DNA from: Archangium sp.
GTDB lineage: Bacteria > Myxococcota > Myxococcia > Myxococcales > Myxococcaceae
Direction of reading: 5' to 3'
Length of the DNA: 64,000 nt
Assembly: GCA_030695565.1 (NCBI GenBank)
Contig: JAUYRZ010000082.1
Coordinates: forward strand, 1-64,000
Positions 30,782-43,580 of the stretch are shown one piece after another. Position numbers and translations under genes: made by a program. The first letter of the stretch is position 1. Each line of letters opens with the position of its first letter. The notes beneath the pieces are model-generated. The model saw nothing but the letters and a program-made list of their open reading frames with translations. It did no database searches and was not told where the DNA came from.

Positions 30782-31873
30782 TCAGATGCGCTGCCACGTC
30801 CAGAACAGGGCGACGCCCAGAATCACGGCTGAACCGAGCGGCATCAGCAGGGCCCGATACACCGGCCGCGCGCGCAGCAACCACGCGACGGGCACGAAGG
30901 CCGCGACGATCGCCAGCTGACCTGCCTCCACCCCGAGGTTGAAGCCGAACACCGAGAGCCACATCGACGGCCCTGCTGCGCCGAGATCGCGGATCGCCGA
31001 GACGAACCCGAAGCCGTGCATCAGGCCCAGCGAGAAGGCGAGCGACCAGCGCGTCTCGGGCACGAAGGGAACCAGGTTGTTGAAGGCGGCCAGCGCCACC
31101 GAGACCGCGATGGCCACCTCGACCCACTTGCCGTTCGGGTTGATCACCCCGAAGGCCGCCAGACCCAGCGTGATGGAGTGCGCCACCGTGAAGGCCGTCA
31201 CCACCTTGGCGACGTCGAGCAGGGTCGGCTTGAAGGCAGGGCGCGGCACCCAGTCGGCTCCCGCCCGGCGCAGCACGGAGGGCAGCAGCAACGCGAAGAG
31301 GAAGCAGAGGTGATCCCAACCGATCGCGATGTGGTGCACGCCTTCGAGGAACGCGAGGCCGGTCTGCTCACCGGCTCCGATGGAGGTGAAGGCGGCGGTC
31401 TGGGTGCGCCGATTGTTGGTGAAGGCCGACCAGTTGCCTCCCGCGGTGCCGCTCACCGAGAGCAGGCCGCGGTGCTGCGCGTCGACGTCGAAGAGCAGCT
31501 CGTACTTCAGCTCGAGCTCGGTGATGGCGGCGGGGCAACGCGCGGTCACCGGCGTCGCGAGGTACGTGCCGTCGGAGTGCGTGATGACGCTCAGTGAGCC
31601 GAGGGTCAGCGGACAGGGTTGGGCGCCTTGCGTGATGGCGAGGGCGTTGGTGAGCGTCTCCCGCAGCGGGGATTCTTTGGCCTTCACCTCGCCCCAGGAG
31701 AGCTTGCCGTCTCCGTTGCCGTCGAGCCCGATGAGCAGGTCGAGGTCTTTGAGCGCGACGTCGAGGCGGCCGGAGAGGGCGGTGTTGCTGGCCGTGAGGG
31801 TCCAGTAGGCGTCGCTGCCTTTGTGCGCGAGGGCCGGGGTTGCGAGGAGGATGACCAGGAGGAGATGTTTCAC
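30782..31873 (-). CDS. HupE/UreJ family membrane protein
   Basis: GVHHIAIGWDHLCFLFALLL, FTVAHSITLGLAAFG, LMHGFGFVSA. Confidence 0.9.
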   Translation of the reverse strand: MKHLLLVILLATPALAHKGSDAYWTLTASNTALSGRLDVALKDLDLLIGLDGNGDGKLSWGEVKAKESPLRETLTNALAITQGAQPCPLTLGSLSVITHSDGTYLATPVTARCPAAITELELKYELLFDVDAQHRGLLSVSGTAGGNWSAFTNNRRTQTAAFTSIGAGEQTGLAFLEGVHHIAIGWDHLCFLFALLLPSVLRRAGADWVPRPAFKPTLLDVAKVVTAFTVAHSITLGLAAFGVINPNGKWVEVAIAVSVALAAFNNLVPFVPETRWSLAFSLGLMHGFGFVSAIRDLGAAGPSMWLSVFGFNLGVEAGQLAIVAAFVPVAWLLRARPVYRALLMPLGSAVILGVALFWTWQRI

Positions 31874-33036
31874 GGCCTCTCACCCCGACCCTCTCCCCCT
31901 CGGGGAGAGGGAGACAGTTGGTTCAGTTTCGGTTGGGTGAAGTTGGTTTGCGCCAGCCACTTCACGACGGGCTGTGCGGCTTGCGGAGATTTTGCGGCGG
32001 CGGCCGCTTCCAGGAGCACTCTCGCGTCAGCAGGTTCCTTCTGAACCGCCCAGTTCTTCACCGCGAGCTCCAGCGCCTTGTTCACGTCGCCTTCGAGCGC
32101 GAGCGCGTAGCGGGACTCTTCACGTTGATGCAGCGTCTCACCGCGTTGCCGGTTGGCGGCCACGCGTTCATCGAGCTCAGCGCGCTTCGTCTCGTAGTCA
32201 GGCGACTTCGCCGCGGAGAGCGCGAGCACCTGCATCAACAACTCACCGTCGTTCACCGCGCGCCCCTCGAACAACTTCGCCGCGCGCGCCGGTTGCCCGC
32301 CATCGAGCAGCACCTGGGCGAGCAGCAGCCGCGAATAGGTGTCGTTGGGATCGACCGTCAACGCCTGGGTGAGCGTCGCTTCAGCGCGCGTGTCATCACC
32401 GCTCCAGTGGGCCAGCTCACCCCGCACCGAGAGCACCCAGCCGCGTTCTTCCGCGGCGGGCGTGAGCGACTCGAGCAGGGTCATCGCTTCTTTCGCGCGG
32501 CCGGTCACGCCCATCACCTGCGCGCGGCACACGGCGACCACCACCGGGTTGCTGATGCCTTCCAATTTCTCGCATGACGCCTGCGCTTCGGGGTACCGCG
32601 CCAGCACCGAGAGCACCGTCGCGCGCGTCAACCACGCCTGCGCGTCGGACGGATCCGCCGCGACCTGCGCTTCGAGATCGACCAACGCCCCTTCGAAGTC
32701 GTGAAAGCTCTGCTTGAGCGTCGCGCGCAGAATGCGGATCTGCGGAGGCGGTGAAGCATCGGCCCACCACGGGGCCAACGTGGCTTGCGCGCGGCCGAGC
32801 AGGCGCGGATCTCCACCTTCCTTGCGCGCTTCATCGATGAGCTGCCGCGCACGCACCGCCGCTTCATCGACGGTCAACGGCGTGGTGGGCCGGGGCGTGC
32901 TCTTCGGCACCTGCTCCAGCACCTGATCATCCGACTTCGGAACGAACGGGCCCGATTGATCAGCACCGGGCGCGAAGATGAACGCCGCGGTGAGCGCCAC
33001 ACCACCCAACAAGACGAAGAGCGTGGCCCGGTTCAC
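31870..33036 (-). CDS. TPR-containing protein; C-terminus translates a palindromic repeat
   Basis: TPR-like helical repeats; C-terminal [18 protein letters not shown] derives from the dispersed palindrome; ATGA overlap with HupE. Confidence 0.75.
   Translation of the reverse strand: MNRATLFVLLGGVALTAAFIFAPGADQSGPFVPKSDDQVLEQVPKSTPRPTTPLTVDEAAVRARQLIDEARKEGGDPRLLGRAQATLAPWWADASPPPQIRILRATLKQSFHDFEGALVDLEAQVAADPSDAQAWLTRATVLSVLARYPEAQASCEKLEGISNPVVVAVCRAQVMGVTGRAKEAMTLLESLTPAAEERGWVLSVRGELAHWSGDDTRAEATLTQALTVDPNDTYSRLLLAQVLLDGGQPARAAKLFEGRAVNDGELLMQVLALSAAKSPDYETKRAELDERVAANRQRGETLHQREESRYALALEGDVNKALELAVKNWAVQKEPADARVLLEAAAAAKSPQAAQPVVKWLAQTNFTQPKLNQLSPSPRGGEGRGERP
31889..31911. repeat. Palindromic dispersed repeat inside the 3' end of the TPR CDS
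   Basis: ccctctccccctcggggagaggg. Confidence 0.8.
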
Positions 33037-33581
33037 AGGGCGTCAAAGGCGCTCAGCACCTTCGCCAACTGCTCCGGGGGCGCATCAGAGCGAGCCACGA
33101 CCGTGAGTACGGACTTCTTGCTGACCCTGGATTGGTACCCGAGCACCTTCGCGGCGACCAACGCGGACAGGGCCTGACCCCGGAGGGCCTGCTCGGGCGA
33201 AGGGTACTCACACACCGTGACGATCATCATCCCGTCAGCCGTGTCGGCCGTGGCGCAGAAGATCGCCAGCAGCTTCTTGCCGAAGCCCTGCTTGGGCGGC
33301 GTGAAGCCAACACCTTCATTCGTCAGCGAAGCGATCAAGGCCTCGAGCGTCGCCGTGCCACCCGTGCGAGCGGCGGCTTCGGCCCTGAGCTGATCCTCGA
33401 GCGAGCCGCCCCCACTGGGAAGCCGGGCCAAATCTTCTTGACGCTGCTCTTCAGCCTTCGCCTTTGGATCCGCACACTTACAGCCAGCCAGGGTCACCAA
33501 AGAAAGAAGGGTGAAAACCAGCAAAAGGGCCTCGTTCGCAGAGGCGGCGTCGTCTCTTCGTCTCAAAGGGAGGTTCATCAT
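33033..33581 (-). CDS. Putative lipoprotein, hypothetical
   Basis: Lipobox-like LVTLAGCKC; start uncertain (an internal TTG/GTG would avoid overlap with the divergent start). Confidence 0.65.
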   Translation of the reverse strand: MMNLPLRRRDDAASANEALLLVFTLLSLVTLAGCKCADPKAKAEEQRQEDLARLPSGGGSLEDQLRAEAAARTGGTATLEALIASLTNEGVGFTPPKQGFGKKLLAIFCATADTADGMMIVTVCEYPSPEQALRGQALSALVAAKVLGYQSRVSKKSVLTVVARSDAPPEQLAKVLSAFDAL

Positions 33582-35142
33582 GCGTTGGTTGGTCCCCGTA
33601 GCCACGATCGCTCTGCTTTCATCCTCGGCGCTCGCTTCAAGTCATCGTGAAGCGCCATTCATTACCAAGAACCCGAAAGTCGACAACACCGACTTCTACC
33701 TCTTCAACAGCTACGCGACCGGGCGCGCGAACTTCGTCACGCTGATCTCGAACTTCCAGCCGCTGCAGGACGCGTACGGCGGTCCGAACTACTTCTCGTT
33801 CGATCCCGAGGCGCTGTACGAGATCCACGTCGACAACACCGGCGACGCGCAAGAAGACCTCACCTTCCAGTTCCGCTTCCAGAACACGCTGATCAACGGC
33901 GGCCAGGGCGTCGCGCTGCCCATCGGCTTTCCCGACGGTGGCATGCAGCAGACCGTCGCCATTCCGCTGATCAACGCGGGCGCGATCGGCCAGGCTGACG
34001 GCGGCTTCACCCGCACCGGCGCCTTCCAGGGCCAGCTCGAGACGTTCACCGTCGGCGTGGTGCGCGGCCCTCGCCGTGGCTCTGCTGCGACGCTCGTCTC
34101 CAAGATGGCCGGTGGCACCAGCTTCGAGAAGCCGATCGACAACATCGGCTCGAAGACCTTCCCCGGCAGCAGCTACGCCAACTACGCGGCGAGCTTCATC
34201 TACGACGTGAACTTCAACATCCCGGGCTGTGCGGTGCCGGGCAAGATCTTCGTCGGCCAGCGCAAAGAAGGTTTCGCCGTCAACCTCGGCACCATCTTTG
34301 ACCTCGTGAACGCGCCTGCCGGCGTCATCACCGACAACACCCTGCGTGGTGCGGTCCCCAACCCCATCGCCAACAAGAACGTCAGCACCATCGCCATCGA
34401 GATCGACAAGAGCTGCCTCGTGAGCGCTGCCGGCGGCACGGTCATCGGCGGTTGGTCGAGCGCGAGCGTTCGTCAGGCCCGCGTGATCAACCCCCAGGGC
34501 AACTACCAAGTTCCGACGCGTGAAGGCGGCGCGTGGGCCCAGGTGAGCCGCCTCGGTTCGCCCCTCGTCAACGAGGTGGTCATCGGCCTCCCCGACAAGG
34601 ACAAGTTCAACAGCAGCGAGCCCAAGGACGACGGCGCCAACTTCGCCAAGTACGTGACCAACCCCACGCTGCCCGCGATTCTCGAGCTCCTCTTCGGGAC
34701 CGCGGCCCCCCGCGCCTTCCCCCGCGCTGACCTCGTGCAGGCGTTCGCCACCGGCGTCACCGGCGTCAACGTCTTCAACGGCACCAACATGATGCCTGCG
34801 CTCGGCGAAATGCTGCGCCTCAACACGGCGCTGCCCGCGACGGCCAACGGCGCTCAGAACAACCTCGGCGCGCTGGGCTGCTTCACGGGCCGCACCGCCA
34901 CCACGGGCCCGATGCTCGTGGTCGCCGGCAACCCGAACTGCGACCCTGCTGGTTTCCCCAACGGCCGCCGCCCTGGCGACGACGTGGTCGACATCGCGCT
35001 GCGCGTCAGCATGGGCGCGCTGCTCTCTGGCAACGCGGCCCCCTCCGGCGCCATCGACTTCCACGACGCCGTGTTGCAGGACGACTCGGACTTCGACGAC
35101 ACGTTCCCCTACCTGAAGACGCCCAACCCGGGCACGCCGTAA
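33580..35142 (+). CDS. DUF4331 domain-containing protein
   Basis: Signal peptide then SSHREAPFITKNPKVDNTDFYLFNSY, typical of the DUF4331 N-terminus. Confidence 0.9.
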   Translation: MRWLVPVATIALLSSSALASSHREAPFITKNPKVDNTDFYLFNSYATGRANFVTLISNFQPLQDAYGGPNYFSFDPEALYEIHVDNTGDAQEDLTFQFRFQNTLINGGQGVALPIGFPDGGMQQTVAIPLINAGAIGQADGGFTRTGAFQGQLETFTVGVVRGPRRGSAATLVSKMAGGTSFEKPIDNIGSKTFPGSSYANYAASFIYDVNFNIPGCAVPGKIFVGQRKEGFAVNLGTIFDLVNAPAGVITDNTLRGAVPNPIANKNVSTIAIEIDKSCLVSAAGGTVIGGWSSASVRQARVINPQGNYQVPTREGGAWAQVSRLGSPLVNEVVIGLPDKDKFNSSEPKDDGANFAKYVTNPTLPAILELLFGTAAPRAFPRADLVQAFATGVTGVNVFNGTNMMPALGEMLRLNTALPATANGAQNNLGALGCFTGRTATTGPMLVVAGNPNCDPAGFPNGRRPGDDVVDIALRVSMGALLSGNAAPSGAIDFHDAVLQDDSDFDDTFPYLKTPNPGTP

Positions 35143-35158: not shown

Positions 35159-35593
35159 ATGATGAAGTTCAGACATGCGATCGCCGTGCTCGCGCTCGGC
35201 GCAATGATGGGAACGGGTTGTTCTTGTGACCCAGTCGTGCCCGACCCTGATGGAGGAATGGGCGGCGGCACGGGTGGTGGGAGGACCGGTGGCGGCACGG
35301 GTGGTGGCGCCATGGGCGGCGGCGGCGGCGGTGCAACCGGTGGTGGCGGTGGAGCCACTGGCGGCGGCGGCGGCGCGATGGGTGGCGGCGGTGGAGCCAC
35401 GGGTGGCGGTGGTGGTGCGACGGGTGGTGGTGGCGGTGCGACTCCGGTGCAGTTCACGGAGTACGTCCGCAACCTCATCGTCACGGGCACCAACGGCACC
35501 TCGCCAGCGGCACCTCCGGCTGATTTCCAGGCGCTGCCCGATGATGCCCCGATCACGTACTCACAGGGCTTCTTCGACGGCGGCACGAATTGA
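35159..35593 (+). CDS. Glycine-rich lipoprotein with heptapeptide repeats
   Basis: Lipobox MMGTGCSC; (GGGGGAT/M)n tract. Confidence 0.75.
   Translation: MMKFRHAIAVLALGAMMGTGCSCDPVVPDPDGGMGGGTGGGRTGGGTGGGAMGGGGGGATGGGGGATGGGGGAMGGGGGATGGGGGATGGGGGATPVQFTEYVRNLIVTGTNGTSPAAPPADFQALPDDAPITYSQGFFDGGTN
35260..35445. repeat. In-frame Gly-rich tandem repeat, ~21-bp unit (GGGGGAT/GGGGGAM)
   Basis: Translated GGGGGGATGGGGGATGGGGGAMGGGGGATGGGGGATGGGGGAT. Confidence 0.8.
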
Positions 35594-36657
35594 ATCGTCT
35601 GTTCCTGATACTGGTGGCGCTGGCTTCGCTCACGTCGTTTGCCCAGCGCAACCCTGATCTGGAAAAGGCACAGCAGCTCCTCGCGCAGAAGAAGTACGCC
35701 GAAGCCCTCAAGAGCATCGAGGCCGCGGCCAAGAAGGGTGGGCTCGAGCGAGAGAGCCTGCTGACCCTGCTTGAAAGTCGGGGCCTCGCACAGGCCTCGT
35801 TGGGCCAGACCGAGAAAGCGGAAGAGAGCTTCCGGTCTGTCCTCCAGCTCGAGCCGCGGCGCGACCTCACCGGGAAGTACACCGGTAAGGTCGTGCCCGT
35901 CATCGCGGCCGCCAAGGAGTGGTTCAAGACCAACGGCGGCATCGAGCTGGGCCCGCTGGATCCCGGCGTCGAAGCGGGGCGCGTGAAGCAGATCTCGCTC
36001 TTCGTGAAGAATGATCCGCTCAAGCTGATCAGCCAGGCGAAGTTCTACGTGCGCAAAGACGGTGGCGCGTGGAAGCCGGTGGAGGCCGCGATGGCCAACG
36101 GCGCTGCCACCACCGACGTCGACGCTGACGTGGTGGAGTGGTGGGCCGAGCTGCTCTCGGAGCGCAAGGATCAGCTGATGTTCCTTGGTTCCGCGGGCAA
36201 GCCCATCAAGCAGACGGCCCCTGCGCCGGTTGCCGTCGCGAAGGTCGAAGAGAAGAAGGCCGACGCTCCGGCAGCAGAGCCGGAGAAGAAGCTGACGCCC
36301 GCGGAGAAGCCGGATGAGCGGCTCGAAGCGGTCACGATGAAGAGCTCTCCTCTTCGCCCGGTGGGGTTCGTGCTGCTGGGCCTCGGCGTCGCTGCCGCGG
36401 GCGTGGGCACGTACTTCGGGGTCACCTCGGCCAGTCAGCGCGACAGCGTGCGAGCTGATTTGGCAGCGGGCAACACCAGCCAGGTCGAGCTGTACAACCG
36501 CGACCAGACGGCCATCAGCAATGGCGCCATCGCCAACGTGCTCTGGGCGGCAGGTGGTGCGCTGGGGGTGACCGGGTTGATCATGGTCATCCTCGGGCAC
36601 GACGTCGCCGTGGTTCCCGGCGCCGGTGGTGGTGTGACCGTGCTCGGCAAATTCTAA
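35590..36657 (+). CDS. TPR-like periplasmic/membrane protein, hypothetical
   Basis: Signal peptide; AQQLLAQKKYAEALKSIEAAAKKG...ASLGQTEKAEESFRSVLQLEP; C-terminal TM segments. TTGA overlap. Confidence 0.75.
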   Translation: MNRLFLILVALASLTSFAQRNPDLEKAQQLLAQKKYAEALKSIEAAAKKGGLERESLLTLLESRGLAQASLGQTEKAEESFRSVLQLEPRRDLTGKYTGKVVPVIAAAKEWFKTNGGIELGPLDPGVEAGRVKQISLFVKNDPLKLISQAKFYVRKDGGAWKPVEAAMANGAATTDVDADVVEWWAELLSERKDQLMFLGSAGKPIKQTAPAPVAVAKVEEKKADAPAAEPEKKLTPAEKPDERLEAVTMKSSPLRPVGFVLLGLGVAAAGVGTYFGVTSASQRDSVRADLAAGNTSQVELYNRDQTAISNGAIANVLWAAGGALGVTGLIMVILGHDVAVVPGAGGGVTVLGKF

Positions 36658-36672
36658 AATTGTTCGCTTCGT

Positions 36673-36718
36673 GCGCGACGCGTGAGGGATCACACTCCTT
36701 CGCGCGTCGCGCTTTTTT
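36673..36718 (+). terminator. Rho-independent terminator
   Basis: 10-bp perfect stem GCGCGACGCG/CGCGTCGCGC, extendable to 17 bp with two GU pairs, followed by TTTTTT; 15 nt after the stop at 36657. Confidence 0.9.
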
Positions 36719-36750
36719 CTTTTCCCCCTCCTCAAGCTTCAGGAGTCGTC

Positions 36751-37233
36751 ATGCGTCTCACGCTTCTCTCCCTCTTTCTCTTCGTGGGTTGCGCCACCAC
36801 GAGCGCCTCCACGGGCGAAGCCGCTGGGAAACCCGCGGCCGGCGAAACCAAGGCGGCAGTCACCCCGGAGGTGCCCAGGAAGCTCTTCGATCGACTCGGA
36901 GGCAAAGGCGCCATCGAGGCGGTCATCGACGACTTCCTCGGCCGGGTGGCTGGTGACGAGAGCATCAACTCGGGCTTCGCGGTGGGGCACGTGCCCCGCC
37001 TGCGTCAACGCCTGGTCGAGCTGGTGTGTGCCGCTTCGGGCGGGCCGTGCACCTACTCGGGCCGCGACATGACCACCGTGCACGCGGGCATGAAGATCAC
37101 CGGCGCGCAGTTCGACTCGCTGGTCGGCCACCTGGTGGCCACGCTCGACAAGTTCAAGGTACCCGCAGGTGAAAAGGGCGAGCTGCTCGGTCTGCTCGGC
37201 CCCATGCGCAGCTCGATCGTGGAGGAACCGTGA
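36751..37233 (+). CDS. Group 1 truncated-hemoglobin-like lipoprotein
   Basis: LFDRLGGKGAIEAVIDDFLGRV...GGPCTYSGRDMTTVHAGMKITGAQFDSLVGHLVATLDKFKV; lipobox FVGC. Confidence 0.8.
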   Translation: MRLTLLSLFLFVGCATTSASTGEAAGKPAAGETKAAVTPEVPRKLFDRLGGKGAIEAVIDDFLGRVAGDESINSGFAVGHVPRLRQRLVELVCAASGGPCTYSGRDMTTVHAGMKITGAQFDSLVGHLVATLDKFKVPAGEKGELLGLLGPMRSSIVEEP

Positions 37234-38633
37234 ACAGCCCCCTGAAGCAGTTGCTGGTTTCGATGATGGTGTTGTCGGGCGCTGCGTTCGCGGCCGATGG
37301 TCAATGGGTCAAGACGCGCGGGGTCGTGCGCTTCATGGTCGAAGGACCACTCGATGACGTCATCGGCGAGACCCGGCAGTCGAGCGGCGTGTTGACCTTT
37401 TCTCCGGAGACCTGGAGCAAGGGCACCGGCGCCATCGCCGTCGACCTCGCTTCGATTCGTACGGGCATCGATCAACGCGACAAGGACATGCGGGTCGAGT
37501 TCCTCGAGACCAGCCGGTTTCCCCGGGCGGTGCTCACCATCGACAGCATCGAGAAGCCCTCGGCGCCTTCGGTGGCTGCAGGCTCGACGGTGACCGGCAC
37601 GGTGGCAGGCTCGTTCGAGCTGCACGGCGTGCGGCGCGCGGTGAAGTTCCCCGTGACGCTCAAGCTCGACGCAGAGGGCAAGGCGCGCATCAGCGGCAAG
37701 TTCGACGTGCCCTTCGCCGACTACAACGTGCAACGCCCGCAGCGCCTGTTCCTCAAGCTCGGTGACGTGGCACAGGTCAACTTCGACATGGGCTTCGAGA
37801 AGCGTGAAGAGAAGCCGGTCGCCAGCGGTGCGCCTGCTCCGGTTGCGGTCGTGGTGGTGGCTCCGACGGTGGCCCAGGTTCAGCCCGCGGCCGCCAAGCC
37901 TGCGAAGCCCAAGCCGCCTCGCAAGCCGAAGCCCGCGCTCGTGTTCACGTACCAGTTCAAGGGCACCGACGCGAAGGCGCTGGGCGAGAAGCTGTTCCAC
38001 GCGCCCACCACGGGTGGTGAGGGCAACAAGATGACGTGCTTCCACTGTCACGCGAAGAGCGACGAACGCTCGGGCCTGCTGCTGAAGGACGGCCACACCC
38101 GTGCGGCGAACAGCATGTACAACGCCGGCCAGCGCCCGAAGTTCTGGGGCGGCTTCGCGGCGACCGCGGGCAAGGCGGCCAACATCTGCCAGAAGCAGTA
38201 CATGCTCGGCGCGGGTCTGAGCTCGGAGCAGGAAGAGCAGCTGCAGGCGTTCATCGATGCGATCAGCCCCGATGGCGCGCCGGCGCTCGACTACACCACC
38301 ACCTACCGCTCGATGGAGACGCTGCTGCGCGACCCCACCGGTGGCGACGCGGTGAAGGGCAAGAAGCTGGCTGACCAGTTCTGCATGACCTGCCACCTCG
38401 ACGGCCGCGTGGGGCCGGTGTGGGCGCCGGGCCTGTACGAGCCTGACTGGGTCGTGCGCCGCGTGCGCCGCCTGGAAGGTCACTCGAACAAGCAGATGCC
38501 GAACTGGACCATCGCGCGCCTGCCTGACAGCGACCTGCGCGACATCGTGACGTACCTGACCAGCCCCGCTTCGGCGGCCCCGGTGTTCGAGCGCAAGAAA
38601 GACGCGGAAGGCGCCAAGGGCGGCTCGCGCTGA
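37230..38633 (+). CDS. YceI domain fused to di-heme c-type cytochrome region
   Basis: YceI-like lipocalin domain (GVLTFSPETWSKGTGAIAVDLASIRTGIDQRDKDM...FELHGVRRAVKFPVTL), Pro/Lys linker, then CFHCH and CMTCH. Confidence 0.85.
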   Translation: MNSPLKQLLVSMMVLSGAAFAADGQWVKTRGVVRFMVEGPLDDVIGETRQSSGVLTFSPETWSKGTGAIAVDLASIRTGIDQRDKDMRVEFLETSRFPRAVLTIDSIEKPSAPSVAAGSTVTGTVAGSFELHGVRRAVKFPVTLKLDAEGKARISGKFDVPFADYNVQRPQRLFLKLGDVAQVNFDMGFEKREEKPVASGAPAPVAVVVVAPTVAQVQPAAAKPAKPKPPRKPKPALVFTYQFKGTDAKALGEKLFHAPTTGGEGNKMTCFHCHAKSDERSGLLLKDGHTRAANSMYNAGQRPKFWGGFAATAGKAANICQKQYMLGAGLSSEQEEQLQAFIDAISPDGAPALDYTTTYRSMETLLRDPTGGDAVKGKKLADQFCMTCHLDGRVGPVWAPGLYEPDWVVRRVRRLEGHSNKQMPNWTIARLPDSDLRDIVTYLTSPASAAPVFERKKDAEGAKGGSR

Positions 38634-39437: not shown

Positions 39438-40022
39438 TCAGTCGTCGAGGGGGAGCTTCTTGAGGAAATCCGCCAGCTCGTCGGCGTGATCTTCCTCCTG
39501 CGCGAGGATGGTCTCGAAGAGCCGCCGGGTGGTCGGATCGGTGTCGCCGATGAAGCGGATGATGGTCGTGTAGGTCTCCACCGCGATGCGCTCGGCGACC
39601 AGGTCTTCAGTGAGCATGCCTCGCAAGGTGCCACTGACCGCGTAGTCGGCGTGGCTGCGCGTGGACAACGTGTCGGGAGAGAAGTCGGGCACGCCACCGA
39701 GCTGGGTAATGCGCCTGGCGAGGAGATCCGCGTGGGCCAGCTCCTCCTGCGAGTGCACCATCAACTCATCTGCCACGGCGTGACCGGCGATGCCGCCGAC
39801 GCTCGCGCCCATGTAGTAATGGTTGCGATAGCGCAACACGCAGACCAGCTCGCTGGCCAGTGAGTCATTGAGCAGCTTGATGATGGTGCGCCGGTCGACG
39901 TGATTGCTGTGGGTGACCGCGCCCTCGTCGATGTGCGTGCGGGCGCGCTTCTTGATGGCCTCGAGATCGAGAGAGAAGGTGTGATTGGTGGTGTCGAGCG
40001 GAACGACGTTGGTCTGGGTCAT
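39438..40022 (-). CDS. Ferritin-like / bacterioferritin-type protein
   Basis: LASELVCVLRYRNHYYMG...HSQEELAHADLLARRITQLGG...AVETYTTIIRFIGDTDPTTRRLFETILAQEEDHADEL. Confidence 0.9.
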   Translation of the reverse strand: MTQTNVVPLDTTNHTFSLDLEAIKKRARTHIDEGAVTHSNHVDRRTIIKLLNDSLASELVCVLRYRNHYYMGASVGGIAGHAVADELMVHSQEELAHADLLARRITQLGGVPDFSPDTLSTRSHADYAVSGTLRGMLTEDLVAERIAVETYTTIIRFIGDTDPTTRRLFETILAQEEDHADELADFLKKLPLDD

Positions 40023-40358: not shown

Positions 40359-41309
40359 TCAGTTTGATGGAGCGAGAGCGAGTTCACATTCGTCGAGTTG
40401 AGCAGCCCAGGCCGCTCGTCCCTCGCTGTCGAGTCGACTGGCGAGCGCCCGACGCGCGAAACAGAGCCGTTCAACATGGGGATCTGCCGCTCGCATTCCC
40501 CGCGCGACGTCGATGCGCAGCCGCGCCAGCTGCCCATCAGCGCAGCGCTGAGCGCGCAGGTCGATTTCACTCTCCGGGCAAACCGGCGTCATGAAGTCGT
40601 CGTTCACGTTCGCGTCGACGGGCCGATATCGCTCGACCGGGTCGTCGTCTCGCCACAACGAGCGGAGCGAAAACAACCCCTGGGCGTCGGTGGCGCGCTG
40701 AACCACCGCCCGGCCGGTTCGATCCTCCAGTCGGCTCGGGACGTGACACCCCACACAGGCATTGATGGCTCCGAGCCGCTTCGCAGCGGCGGAGCGTTCA
40801 GCTTCTCCTTCGGGCGCGTCGATGAAGCCTTTCTGCACCCAGGCGCTGAGCACCTCACCTGCGCGCGCATCGGCGTGGGCCCCGCATGACCATCGCAACC
40901 CCTTGAGTACGCCCCCGGCCGGCCGAAGCACCACGCACTGAAGGCCTGACGCCGTCCACTCGAACTGCCGCACGTCGAGCACCTTCCAGCTGGCTTCTGG
41001 CAGGGCATCGACGCCGGCAGTGCCCCGGTACTCGATCCGCGAAGCAACCGTGCCAACGGGGAGCTTCACCGTTCGTTCACCGCGCGCGTCGAGAGACGTG
41101 CTGAGCACTTCGCGCTCTGGAAGGTTCAACGCCACGGCGATGTGCACCCGCCCATCGACCGAGGTCGGCGGGCGCACCGGGCTCACCACGCTCAGGCTCG
41201 AGCGCCACTGCAGGGGGTTCGCCGAAGCGGTCACGAACTCCATGCCAGCGGGGAGCTTCGGAGCCGATTGGCAGCCGAACACCAGGACCACCAGCAGCAC
41301 TGCCCTCAT
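40359..41309 (-). CDS. Putative cytochrome-type lipoprotein (CVGCH) in the MNIO operon
   Basis: N-terminal LVFGCQS lipobox; CVGCH heme-binding motif. Confidence 0.7.
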   Translation of the reverse strand: MRAVLLVVLVFGCQSAPKLPAGMEFVTASANPLQWRSSLSVVSPVRPPTSVDGRVHIAVALNLPEREVLSTSLDARGERTVKLPVGTVASRIEYRGTAGVDALPEASWKVLDVRQFEWTASGLQCVVLRPAGGVLKGLRWSCGAHADARAGEVLSAWVQKGFIDAPEGEAERSAAAKRLGAINACVGCHVPSRLEDRTGRAVVQRATDAQGLFSLRSLWRDDDPVERYRPVDANVNDDFMTPVCPESEIDLRAQRCADGQLARLRIDVARGMRAADPHVERLCFARRALASRLDSEGRAAWAAQLDECELALAPSN

Positions 41310-42016
41310 GGCAGCCAGCCCTCGAGCGCCTCACGCGCACCCGTCGACAACAAGCCCAACGACGCCAGGGCACCCGCTTCGCGCACGAGGTCGTCTCGAG
41401 GGATGACAGGCAGGTCGGCGCTCCACGCACGGTCTTGCAGAACCTGGATCACCACCAGGGCGGCCAACGAGGGCTCGACGATGACCACCTCAGCCGTCTG
41501 GCGCGAGCGGCCCAGCAGCCACGTCTCGGGCACGTTCAAGGGGCGACCACTCGTTTTCCCGTCGCGTTCGACCTCCCGGGTGAAGGCGCGCACGGCGTGG
41601 GTGTAGTGGCGCACGATGAGCTCCGAGACATCATCGGTGTTCGGCGCCATCGACACCACGTGCCGACTCCAGGCGAAATCGGCCAGCTCCACGAGCGCTG
41701 CGCCCGCACCACGCTGTTCGAGGAACGAAGGGAACTGGGCCGCGGCTCGAGAAGGCACCCAGTGACGGGGCGGGTACGCGCGCAGGTACGCTTCGCGAAG
41801 CGGGCTGAAGCGGGGCCCGGCGGCCACCTTCACCGCCGCGTAGAAATCATCGAGCACGCCGTGCTGTTGGCGCTCCACCAGCGTGGCGTAGAGCGCGAGC
41901 CGTCGCGACCCTGAGGCAGAAGGGCCCAGCACGCGCTCGACCTGCCGAGCCGAGCGACTCCCGTCGAGCAGCCCCGCCATCTCCTTCAAGAAGTCGTCGA
42001 GCGGAACGGGCTTCAT
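41306..42016 (-). CDS. DUF2063 (HvfC/BufC-like) MNIO partner protein
   Basis: RRLALYATLVERQQHGVLDDFYAAVKVAAGPRFSPLREAYLRAYPPRHW...FPSFLEQ...LVELADFAW. Confidence 0.85.
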   Translation of the reverse strand: MKPVPLDDFLKEMAGLLDGSRSARQVERVLGPSASGSRRLALYATLVERQQHGVLDDFYAAVKVAAGPRFSPLREAYLRAYPPRHWVPSRAAAQFPSFLEQRGAGAALVELADFAWSRHVVSMAPNTDDVSELIVRHYTHAVRAFTREVERDGKTSGRPLNVPETWLLGRSRQTAEVVIVEPSLAALVVIQVLQDRAWSADLPVIPRDDLVREAGALASLGLLSTGAREALEGWLP

Positions 42017-42822
42017 GCGTGTCGATCCATGAGGGCTCTGGCGCGGTCGGCCTCATCGAGCACCGCATCGAGCGAGGGAATGTGCTGGTCCCACTCAATC
42101 AACGTGGGCACGGGGCCGCAACGCTTCAGCGCCGCGACGTAGAGTTCCCAGACGGGCGCGGCGACCGGGGCCGCGTGGGTGTCGAGGAGCAGCTCTCGGT
42201 CACGCGAGTGCCCGGCGAGGTGAAGCTGCCGAACGTGCTCGAGCGGAAACTGTTCGAGGAGCGCTCGTGGATCCTTCCCGTGGTTGATGGCGTTGACGTA
42301 GAGGTTGTTGACGTCGAGCAGCAGGCCCACCCCGGCCTCTTCCGCCACGCGCCGCAGCAGGGTCGCCTCGTCGAAGACCGAGCCGGGCATCTCGGCATAG
42401 GTGGTGATGTTCTCGAGAACGAGTGGGTAACCGACGGCCTGCTGTGCGGCGCGCGCGTGACCGACCACCCGCGCCACCGTTTCGTCGTGCCGCGGCAAGG
42501 GGAGGAGATCGAACCACGTGCGCTCTCCCACGGAGGAAAAGCACAGGTGATCGCTGAAGAACGGCGGGTCGAGGAGACGAACGAAGGGCGCGAGGTTCTC
42601 GAGATAGCCCTCCGGAGGAGCGCTCCCCACGGAGAGGCCGACCCCGTGGGGAATGAGGGGCCACCTCGCGCGGAAACGCTCCAGGAGCACCGCGGGCCTT
42701 CCGGTCAGGCCCGCGAAGTTCTCGGTGATGACCTCGAGCCAGTCGACTCGACGTGCGGTGGCCAGAAGGGGGTCGAACAGCTCACGCCGCAACCCGATGC
42801 CGACCCCGCTCACCGCTGGCAT
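42013..42822 (-). CDS. DUF692 multinuclear non-heme iron-dependent oxidase (MNIO)
   Basis: GVGIGLRRELFDPLL, WLEVITENFAG, PLIPHGVGLSVGS, FFSDHLCFS, LVLENITTYAEMPGS, LLLDVNNLYVNAINHG, HLAGHS, THAAPVAAPVWELY, IEWDQHIPSL. Confidence 0.92.
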   Translation of the reverse strand: MPAVSGVGIGLRRELFDPLLATARRVDWLEVITENFAGLTGRPAVLLERFRARWPLIPHGVGLSVGSAPPEGYLENLAPFVRLLDPPFFSDHLCFSSVGERTWFDLLPLPRHDETVARVVGHARAAQQAVGYPLVLENITTYAEMPGSVFDEATLLRRVAEEAGVGLLLDVNNLYVNAINHGKDPRALLEQFPLEHVRQLHLAGHSRDRELLLDTHAAPVAAPVWELYVAALKRCGPVPTLIEWDQHIPSLDAVLDEADRARALMDRHA

Positions 42823-42826
42823 GACG

Positions 42827-43447
42827 TCACGGCACCTGGGTGTAGACGAAGTCGCGACCAGAGTGTTGTGCGTCGCTCCCCGCGCCCGCGTGGCAGCTGG
42901 TGCACACGGCCTTCTCCGTGCCCGTCTTGTCACCCTTGCCGTTGGCGATCAGCACGCCGTTGTCCTTCTCGAACCAGTACCAGCTCGCTCCGGTCGACGG
43001 GCCCGCCACGAGCTTGAGGCCGATGGCGTAGCCGCTGATCGTGGTGCCACCGTCAGTCGGGAAGATCTCCTTCACGCTCGCAGCGCCCACGGGGTAGTTG
43101 CCGGTCGCGGTCATGGTGAGCTTCGTGTTGTTGCAGATGCGATTGCGCCCGTGCGGCGAGGGGGAGCGCGCGTCGTGCGCGGCGGGCTCACACTTCCAGC
43201 TCAGATAGGCACCGCCCGAGAGCCAGGCGCTCACCACCGCGTCGCTGTTCATCGGCGGGGTCTGGGCATCACCCATGGTGGTGGCCGGGCACCCTGCGGG
43301 ACAACCAGCGTCTGCCGCCGGGCAGCCAGCGGGGCAGCCCGCCATGCCGGAGTCCTGGGTGGCGGTCATCGGGCCGCCACAGCCGACGAGCGCGAGGGAG
43401 CCGACGACGGCGGTATTCTTGAGCAGCGATTTGAGGTTCTTCAGCAT
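42827..43447 (-). CDS. Lipoprotein with Cys repeat (GCPAGCPAADAGCPAGCP) and cytochrome P460-like C-terminal domain (CTSCH); candidate MNIO substrate
   Basis: Lipobox SLALVGCGG; Cys-repeat segment at 43276-43345; C-terminal GASWYWFEKDNG...AVCTSCHAGAGSDAQHSGRDFVYTQV. Confidence 0.75.
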   Translation of the reverse strand: MLKNLKSLLKNTAVVGSLALVGCGGPMTATQDSGMAGCPAGCPAADAGCPAGCPATTMGDAQTPPMNSDAVVSAWLSGGAYLSWKCEPAAHDARSPSPHGRNRICNNTKLTMTATGNYPVGAASVKEIFPTDGGTTISGYAIGLKLVAGPSTGASWYWFEKDNGVLIANGKGDKTGTEKAVCTSCHAGAGSDAQHSGRDFVYTQVP

Positions 43448-43580
43448 GGGAAAGGTCCTTGGGGAGGCGTGACGCGGCCAAAGAGCCGCAAACTTCGATA
43501 CGGCATCGCCCACCTCTGGTTACACGGGCAGTGTGAGAGAAAGCTGAAGGGGCCTTCGAAAAAGCCGGTAAGCGCAGGGG

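Follow-up and report, generated by a model that had tools for sequence, protein, structure and literature searches.

A conserved myxobacterial gene joins a YceI-type barrel to a TsdA-like diheme cytochrome and adjoins the gene of a secreted truncated globin

The window, meaning the whole stretch of DNA that was analysed, comprised 64,000 nucleotides of an Archangium sp. genome (assembly GCA_030695565.1, contig JAUYRZ010000082.1, positions 1–64,000). It contained a gene encoding a YceI-type barrel fused to a diheme cytochrome, together with several neighbouring genes. The features of this region were as follows.

30782–33605, reverse strand: divergent set encoding a 190-residue lipoprotein, a TPR protein and a HupE/UreJ-like membrane protein (the HupE name was given by inspection, not from a family match)
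33511–35142, forward strand: DUF4331 secreted protein (PF14224, E 1.4e-134), conserved, probably the first gene of the operon in the lineage of the window
35159–35593, forward strand: Gly-rich lipoprotein of the same operon
35590–36657, forward strand: TPR protein of the same operon, conserved in close orthologues
36682–37233, forward strand: secreted truncated-globin lipoprotein (PF01152, alignment, linkage), start probably the ATG at 36751
37221–37226, forward strand: strong Shine-Dalgarno-like GGAGGA immediately 5' of the GTG start, read from the sequence
37230–38633, forward strand: YceI-diheme cytochrome fusion gene, 467 amino acids (ORF, Pfam, orthologues)
37230–37295, forward strand: predicted Sec signal peptide with cleavage between AFA and AD near residue 22 (from the sequence, a helix at residues 5–15 in the model and the aligned hydrophobic N-termini of orthologues)
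37299–37802, forward strand: YceI-type beta-barrel domain, residues 24–191 (Pfam, AlphaFold, Foldseek)
37803–37970, forward strand: Ala/Pro/Lys-rich linker, residues 192–247 (sequence, orthologue alignment, mostly low pLDDT)
37971–38279, forward strand: heme domain 1, residues 248–350, TsdA/SoxA-like with a CCP/MauG-like signature (profile and fold matches)
38037–38051, forward strand: CFHCH heme 1 attachment motif, residues 270–274
38187–38189, forward strand: codon of Cys320, invariant candidate axial ligand of heme 1
38337–38567, forward strand: heme domain 2, residues 370–446, cytochrome c/CBB3 type (PF13442)
38382–38396, forward strand: CMTCH heme 2 attachment motif, residues 385–389
38496–38498, forward strand: codon of Met423, candidate axial ligand of heme 2

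The fusion gene was intact, with 467 codons open from GTG. The first-pass annotation had described one continuous ORF with a secreted YceI-like domain, a Pro/Lys/Ala linker and a C-terminal region carrying CFHCH and CMTCH motifs, and this description held up. The reading frame was uninterrupted and orthologues kept the whole fusion; a match to PF04264 (YceI) covered residues 42–187 (E 8.1e-21; 75.4 bits against a gathering cut-off of 23.7) behind the signal peptide; the linker lay between the halves; and both motifs were genuine CXXCH sites, invariant in 14 orthologues. The domain-architecture search it had proposed placed YceI and Cytochrome_CBB3 (PF13442, residues 374–443, E 6.4e-11) on one chain. 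The reported ATGA overlap with the globin gene was wrong, however: the overlap reads GTGA, and the fusion starts with GTG. The secretion signal, the two conserved CXXCH motifs and Ccm-type assembly genes in the same genome, encoding CcmC/CcmF-type proteins, mark the product as a putative c-type cytochrome.

Of 179 Myxococcota genomes (completeness 80% or more) searched with a profile, 15 contained the fusion; 14 of these belonged to the window's own family and one to another family of the same order. This pattern points to an old fusion that was retained in part of one family and is missing from most relatives. Among 60 related genomes searched, 13 full-length fusions were present, including that of the window. 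Full-length orthologues were 37–89% identical and came from uncultured myxobacterial lineages, the named records being metagenome-assembled genomes (MAGs) labelled Archangium, Archangiaceae, Myxococcus and Myxococcales. Invariant residues occurred in both halves of the alignment of 14 orthologues. Since orthologues of this divergence carry the entire fusion elsewhere, it is due neither to chance nor to a frame or assembly artefact; 14 further Myxococcota genomes in the sample contain orthologues, which rules the artefact out. A scan of genome contigs, which reached close relatives only, found nothing beyond myxobacterial MAG relatives, and the relatives on plasmids were solely stand-alone YceI proteins of Thermus and Deinococcus. 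The diheme family to which the cytochrome half belongs was present in 93 of the 179 Myxococcota genomes, mostly without YceI. The literature searches made found no published description of a myxobacterial YceI-diheme fusion.

The gene overlapping the start of the fusion encodes, as had been proposed, a truncated-globin lipoprotein (PF01152, E 6.7e-15; 55.8 bits against a cut-off of 21). Its proximal His was invariant in 13 of 13 aligned sequences and an invariant Cys pair was also kept. The position that we took by eye, from knowledge of the family, to be B10 held Leu, Val or Met instead of the Tyr expected for O2/NO chemistry, and a role as an O2/NO dioxygenase is weakened by this absence. 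At all loci with upstream sequence, the globin gene lay directly upstream of the fusion or one kinase gene away; one orthologue (L039) was left out of this comparison because its contig starts too near the fusion gene. The same linkage was seen at the additional loci L052, L055 and L058. Globin genes (E ≤ 1e-20) were present in 12 of 13 genomes with the fusion and in 0 of 47 without it (60 genomes; Fisher's test, 9e-12, a value that ignores the relatedness of the genomes). The remainder of the neighbourhood was less widely kept. The set of HupE, TPR and lipoprotein genes and DUF4331, lipoprotein, TPR, globin and YceI-cytochrome genes was wholly or partly conserved at L032, L033 and L046, and likewise, as far as the contigs extend, at L034–L036 and L038. 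At the distant orthologues L037 and L040–L043 and at a second copy in genome G010 (L064), the HupE/DUF4331 set was not found and the globin was still upstream. No literature on DUF4331 was found, and we know of no function of the DUF4331, TPR or HupE neighbours that would tie them to the redox chemistry proposed below. The first-pass annotation had thus rightly named the globin neighbour; it overlooked the conservation of this gene in distant orthologues, as well as the published precedents for YceI-cytochrome proteins.

A second globin with a lipobox, encoded elsewhere in this genome (L126, G000:C86), adjoins a ferritin-like gene. The window also contains a ferritin-like gene resembling it (39438–40022, reverse strand), 0.8 kb from the fusion; other genomes do not keep this gene in the vicinity of the fusion.

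In the AlphaFold model of the whole protein, the YceI barrel was predicted with pLDDT values mostly between 80 and 95, whereas neither the linker nor the position of the barrel relative to the hemes was predicted (pTM 0.46). A Foldseek search with the barrel gave 21 significant matches, without exception to proteins or domains of the YceI type. BcnA (5ixh, E 6e-12) came first, and Thermus TT1927b, E. coli YceI and the Saccharophagus X158 domain were among the others; 5ixh, 1wub and 1y0g matched with E values of 1e-10 to 1e-12 and TMt of 0.73–0.84. YceI proteins bind isoprenoids, often ubiquinone-8, which is also held by solved YceI/X158 domains (PMC8981238, PMC9113575), and a protective effect of YceI lipocalins against lipid peroxyl radicals has been described (PMC9113575). 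By analogy with the family, the barrel of the fusion would hold a lipid of the isoprenoid class, (mena)quinone being the likeliest.

The first-pass annotation had correctly recognised c-type heme fused to the secreted barrel, but had missed that the cytochrome half is a TsdA-like diheme module with a Cys as candidate ligand. In profile searches with the 225-residue C-terminal part, many small cytochromes matched heme domain 2, and the matches running end to end over both domains were chiefly TsdBA (5lo9, E 1.1e-11) and TsdA (4wq7 group, 1.1e-9). The whole-protein model (pLDDT 68.6) was poor in this half, and a separate model of the cytochrome half built from 43 family sequences reached a pLDDT of 88.5 and a pTM of 0.85. 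In a fold search of this model against the PDB, ranks 1–6 were all TsdA/TsdBA (probability 0.91–1.00, E 0.004–0.018). The TM scores were only 0.36–0.42, and the inter-domain arrangement therefore differs.

Cys320 was present in 50 of 50 distinct family sequences. It fell independently at the position of Met275 of Pseudomonas CcpA, which we take to be the heme-E ligand of that protein. It also aligned with chain Cys96 of TsdA (sequence from PDB 4wq7), equivalent to precursor Cys123, so that the protein shares with TsdA/SoxA a two-domain cytochrome with a Cys at the candidate ligand position of heme 1. TsdA Cys123 (precursor numbering) is a heme ligand in the crystal structure (PMC4423706). Heme 1 is thus probably a TsdA-like His/Cys heme (His274/Cys320). 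For heme 2, the Met was kept in 47 of 50 family sequences, and ligation by His389/Met423, as in an ordinary electron-transfer heme, is strongly suggested. In the divergent orthologue L039 (462–1829, forward strand), a Cys replaces this Met (GCP for QMP).

At two other loci of this genome (L121, G000:C54; L122/L002, G000:C72), the gene after a YceI gene, in the same orientation, encodes an apparently outer-membrane protein with a single CXXCH (SCAACHVDPSGSG...). The association of YceI with heme thus recurs in this genome. A single gene at L109 (3280–5121, reverse strand) combined a long (Gly-Asp)n tract with a module of the same diheme family as the cytochrome half and with a P460-like CIGCH domain. 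The window also contained an MNIO/bufferin-like cassette (40359–43513, reverse strand):

40359–41309, reverse strand: CXXCH protein
41306–42016, reverse strand: DUF2063 partner of the MNIO maturase
42013–42933, reverse strand: MNIO maturase (PF05114, E 1e-89)
42827–43513, reverse strand: lipoprotein with the N-terminus CPAGCPAADAGCPAGCP, fused to a weakly Cytochrome_P460-like CTSCH domain

The Cys-rich stretch of this lipoprotein may be a modified peptide; it was absent from the related P460-like lipoproteins L129, L131 and L132.

On one secreted chain, conserved in this form, the gene thus combines a YceI barrel with a two-domain diheme cytochrome across a flexible linker. We tentatively favour the interpretation that it is a soluble periplasmic quinone- or lipid-binding redox protein, partnered with the secreted globin in envelope redox or lipid-peroxidation defence, and the periplasmic lipid-binding electron carrier suggested in the first-pass annotation remains the most economical reading. 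What was observed is the domain content, the secretion signal, the conservation and the globin linkage; the heme ligands, the quinone in the barrel, the flow of electrons and the globin as partner are inferred. At the membrane surface the barrel would pick up a quinone or lipid capable of redox reactions, and electrons would pass between this bound molecule and the hemes of the same polypeptide. The hemes, in turn, may reduce or oxidise the globin lipoprotein of the neighbouring gene, for example by keeping its iron ferrous during reactions of the globin with NO, O2 or peroxides. Physiologically, the protein might then serve in redox or lipid-peroxidation defence of the envelope. The monoheme cytochrome genes adjoining other YceI genes of this genome provide supporting context. 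Against an electron-carrier model counts that hemes with His/Cys ligation usually have a low potential and act in catalysis or regulation, not as simple carriers. The more specific scheme, in which a quinone-carrying YceI barrel feeds a His/Cys–His/Met diheme relay to the membrane-anchored periplasmic truncated globin and so acts as a dedicated extracytoplasmic globin reductase, seems improbable to us.

A regulatory function was considered as well. The His/Cys heme and the secreted globin could bind NO, CO, sulfide or peroxide and pass a signal to a membrane Ser/Thr kinase, forming an envelope redox or gas sensor. At L037, L042, L043 and L064, the four more divergent loci that were read in detail, a gene for a Ser/Thr kinase with an RDD-like membrane C-terminus indeed sits between globin and fusion, the globin's lack of Tyr B10 is in line with sensing, and the His/Cys ligands of TsdA are reported to be exchangeable (PMC9562282). 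We nevertheless consider a sensor unlikely, given that operons of the window type contain no kinase gene and that the ordinary electron-transfer heme 2 would be superfluous in a pure sensor.

The chances of a diheme peroxidase of the CCP/MauG kind, removing peroxides or lipid peroxides presented by the barrel, appear slim. Heme domain 1 matched CCP_MauG in 36 of 43 family members (best 2.5e-8) and also matched CCP structures, and removal of lipid peroxides would fit the protection that YceI lipocalins give against lipid peroxyl radicals (PMC9113575). The match is local, however, covering about 70 residues, and in the window protein it was below the Pfam cut-off (PF03150, residues 249–318; 20.5 against 25.6 bits). 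Moreover, CCP structures ranked below TsdA in the fold search with the cytochrome-half model, and the axial position of heme 1 is an invariant Cys.

It is very unlikely that the protein is a TsdA/SoxA-type enzyme acting through its Cys ligand on thiosulfate or another thiol compound. TsdA and TsdBA were the top fold and full-length profile matches, the Cys ligand aligned, and 7 of 43 family members matched PF21342 (SoxA-TsdA) and 7 of 43 TIGR04484 (SoxA); the window protein, however, had no match to PF21342 at E ≤ 1. Arg119 is invariant in TsdA and SoxA, and Ser127 is invariant in TsdA and absent from SoxA (PMC4423706). In the family studied here, the Arg119 position (C−4) is a conserved Ala and the Ser127 position (C+4) is Tyr or Phe. 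These replacements make thiosulfate chemistry unlikely, and the fusion is, judging from the alignment, probably not a thiosulfate enzyme; such a function would also leave the YceI barrel without a purpose. There is equally little to recommend a barrel that merely scavenges antibiotics or lipids and was joined by chance to hemes of separate function: BcnA is reported to bind antibiotics (PMC5350466), and the cytochrome family is widespread without YceI, but the fusion was retained down to about 37% identity and links between YceI and redox proteins recur (PMC9113575, PMC8981238; other loci of this genome).

YceI proteins are widespread binders of quinone-like lipids whose redox chemistry is unproven; with a natural YceI-diheme fusion, a single purified protein would suffice for a direct test of electron exchange between barrel lipid and heme. 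The globin is linked to the fusion even where the other operon genes are missing, and one may ask what serves to reduce such a globin outside the cytoplasm. The cytochrome half adds a large Myxococcota family, one without the thiosulfate site, to the TsdA-like diheme proteins with a Cys ligand.

Fusions of YceI and cytochromes as such are already known from Cbp2D (PMC8981238) and LcoA-BcnA (PMC9113575). Cbp2D of Cellvibrio japonicus consists of CBM2, YceI-like X158, FN3 and the c-type domains X183 and X132 (PMC8981238). Its architecture resembles that of the fusion, as it is secreted and pairs a YceI-like domain with two c-type heme domains at the C-terminus, X183 and X132, each containing one CXXCH. 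In contrast to the fusion, it has a carbohydrate-binding module and FN3, is tied to cellulose use, includes an X132 described as novel sequence (PMC8981238) and has no described globin partner; no match to a CBM or FN3 was found in the window protein with Pfam. LcoA-BcnA, in which cytochrome b561 and a YceI lipocalin are fused in many alphaproteobacteria, serves in lipid-peroxyl defence (PMC9113575). It likewise couples a YceI lipocalin to a heme protein, but that partner is a membrane b561, whereas here it is a soluble diheme cytochrome c. With TsdA/TsdBA and SoxA the window protein shares two cytochrome domains in the same order, with a candidate Cys at heme 1 and Met at heme 2; unlike TsdA/TsdBA, it lacks the key active-site Arg and Ser and is fused to YceI. 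The stand-alone diheme lipoproteins of Myxococcota have the same two heme domains and candidate Cys and Met ligands, but lack YceI, and at L096, L111, L112 and L114 they are encoded beside a YVTN-type beta-propeller lipoprotein instead of a globin. The apparently new features are that YceI is joined to a TsdA-like diheme module, which is probably Cys-ligated and lacks the TsdA active-site residues, and that the fusion constantly accompanies a secreted truncated globin.
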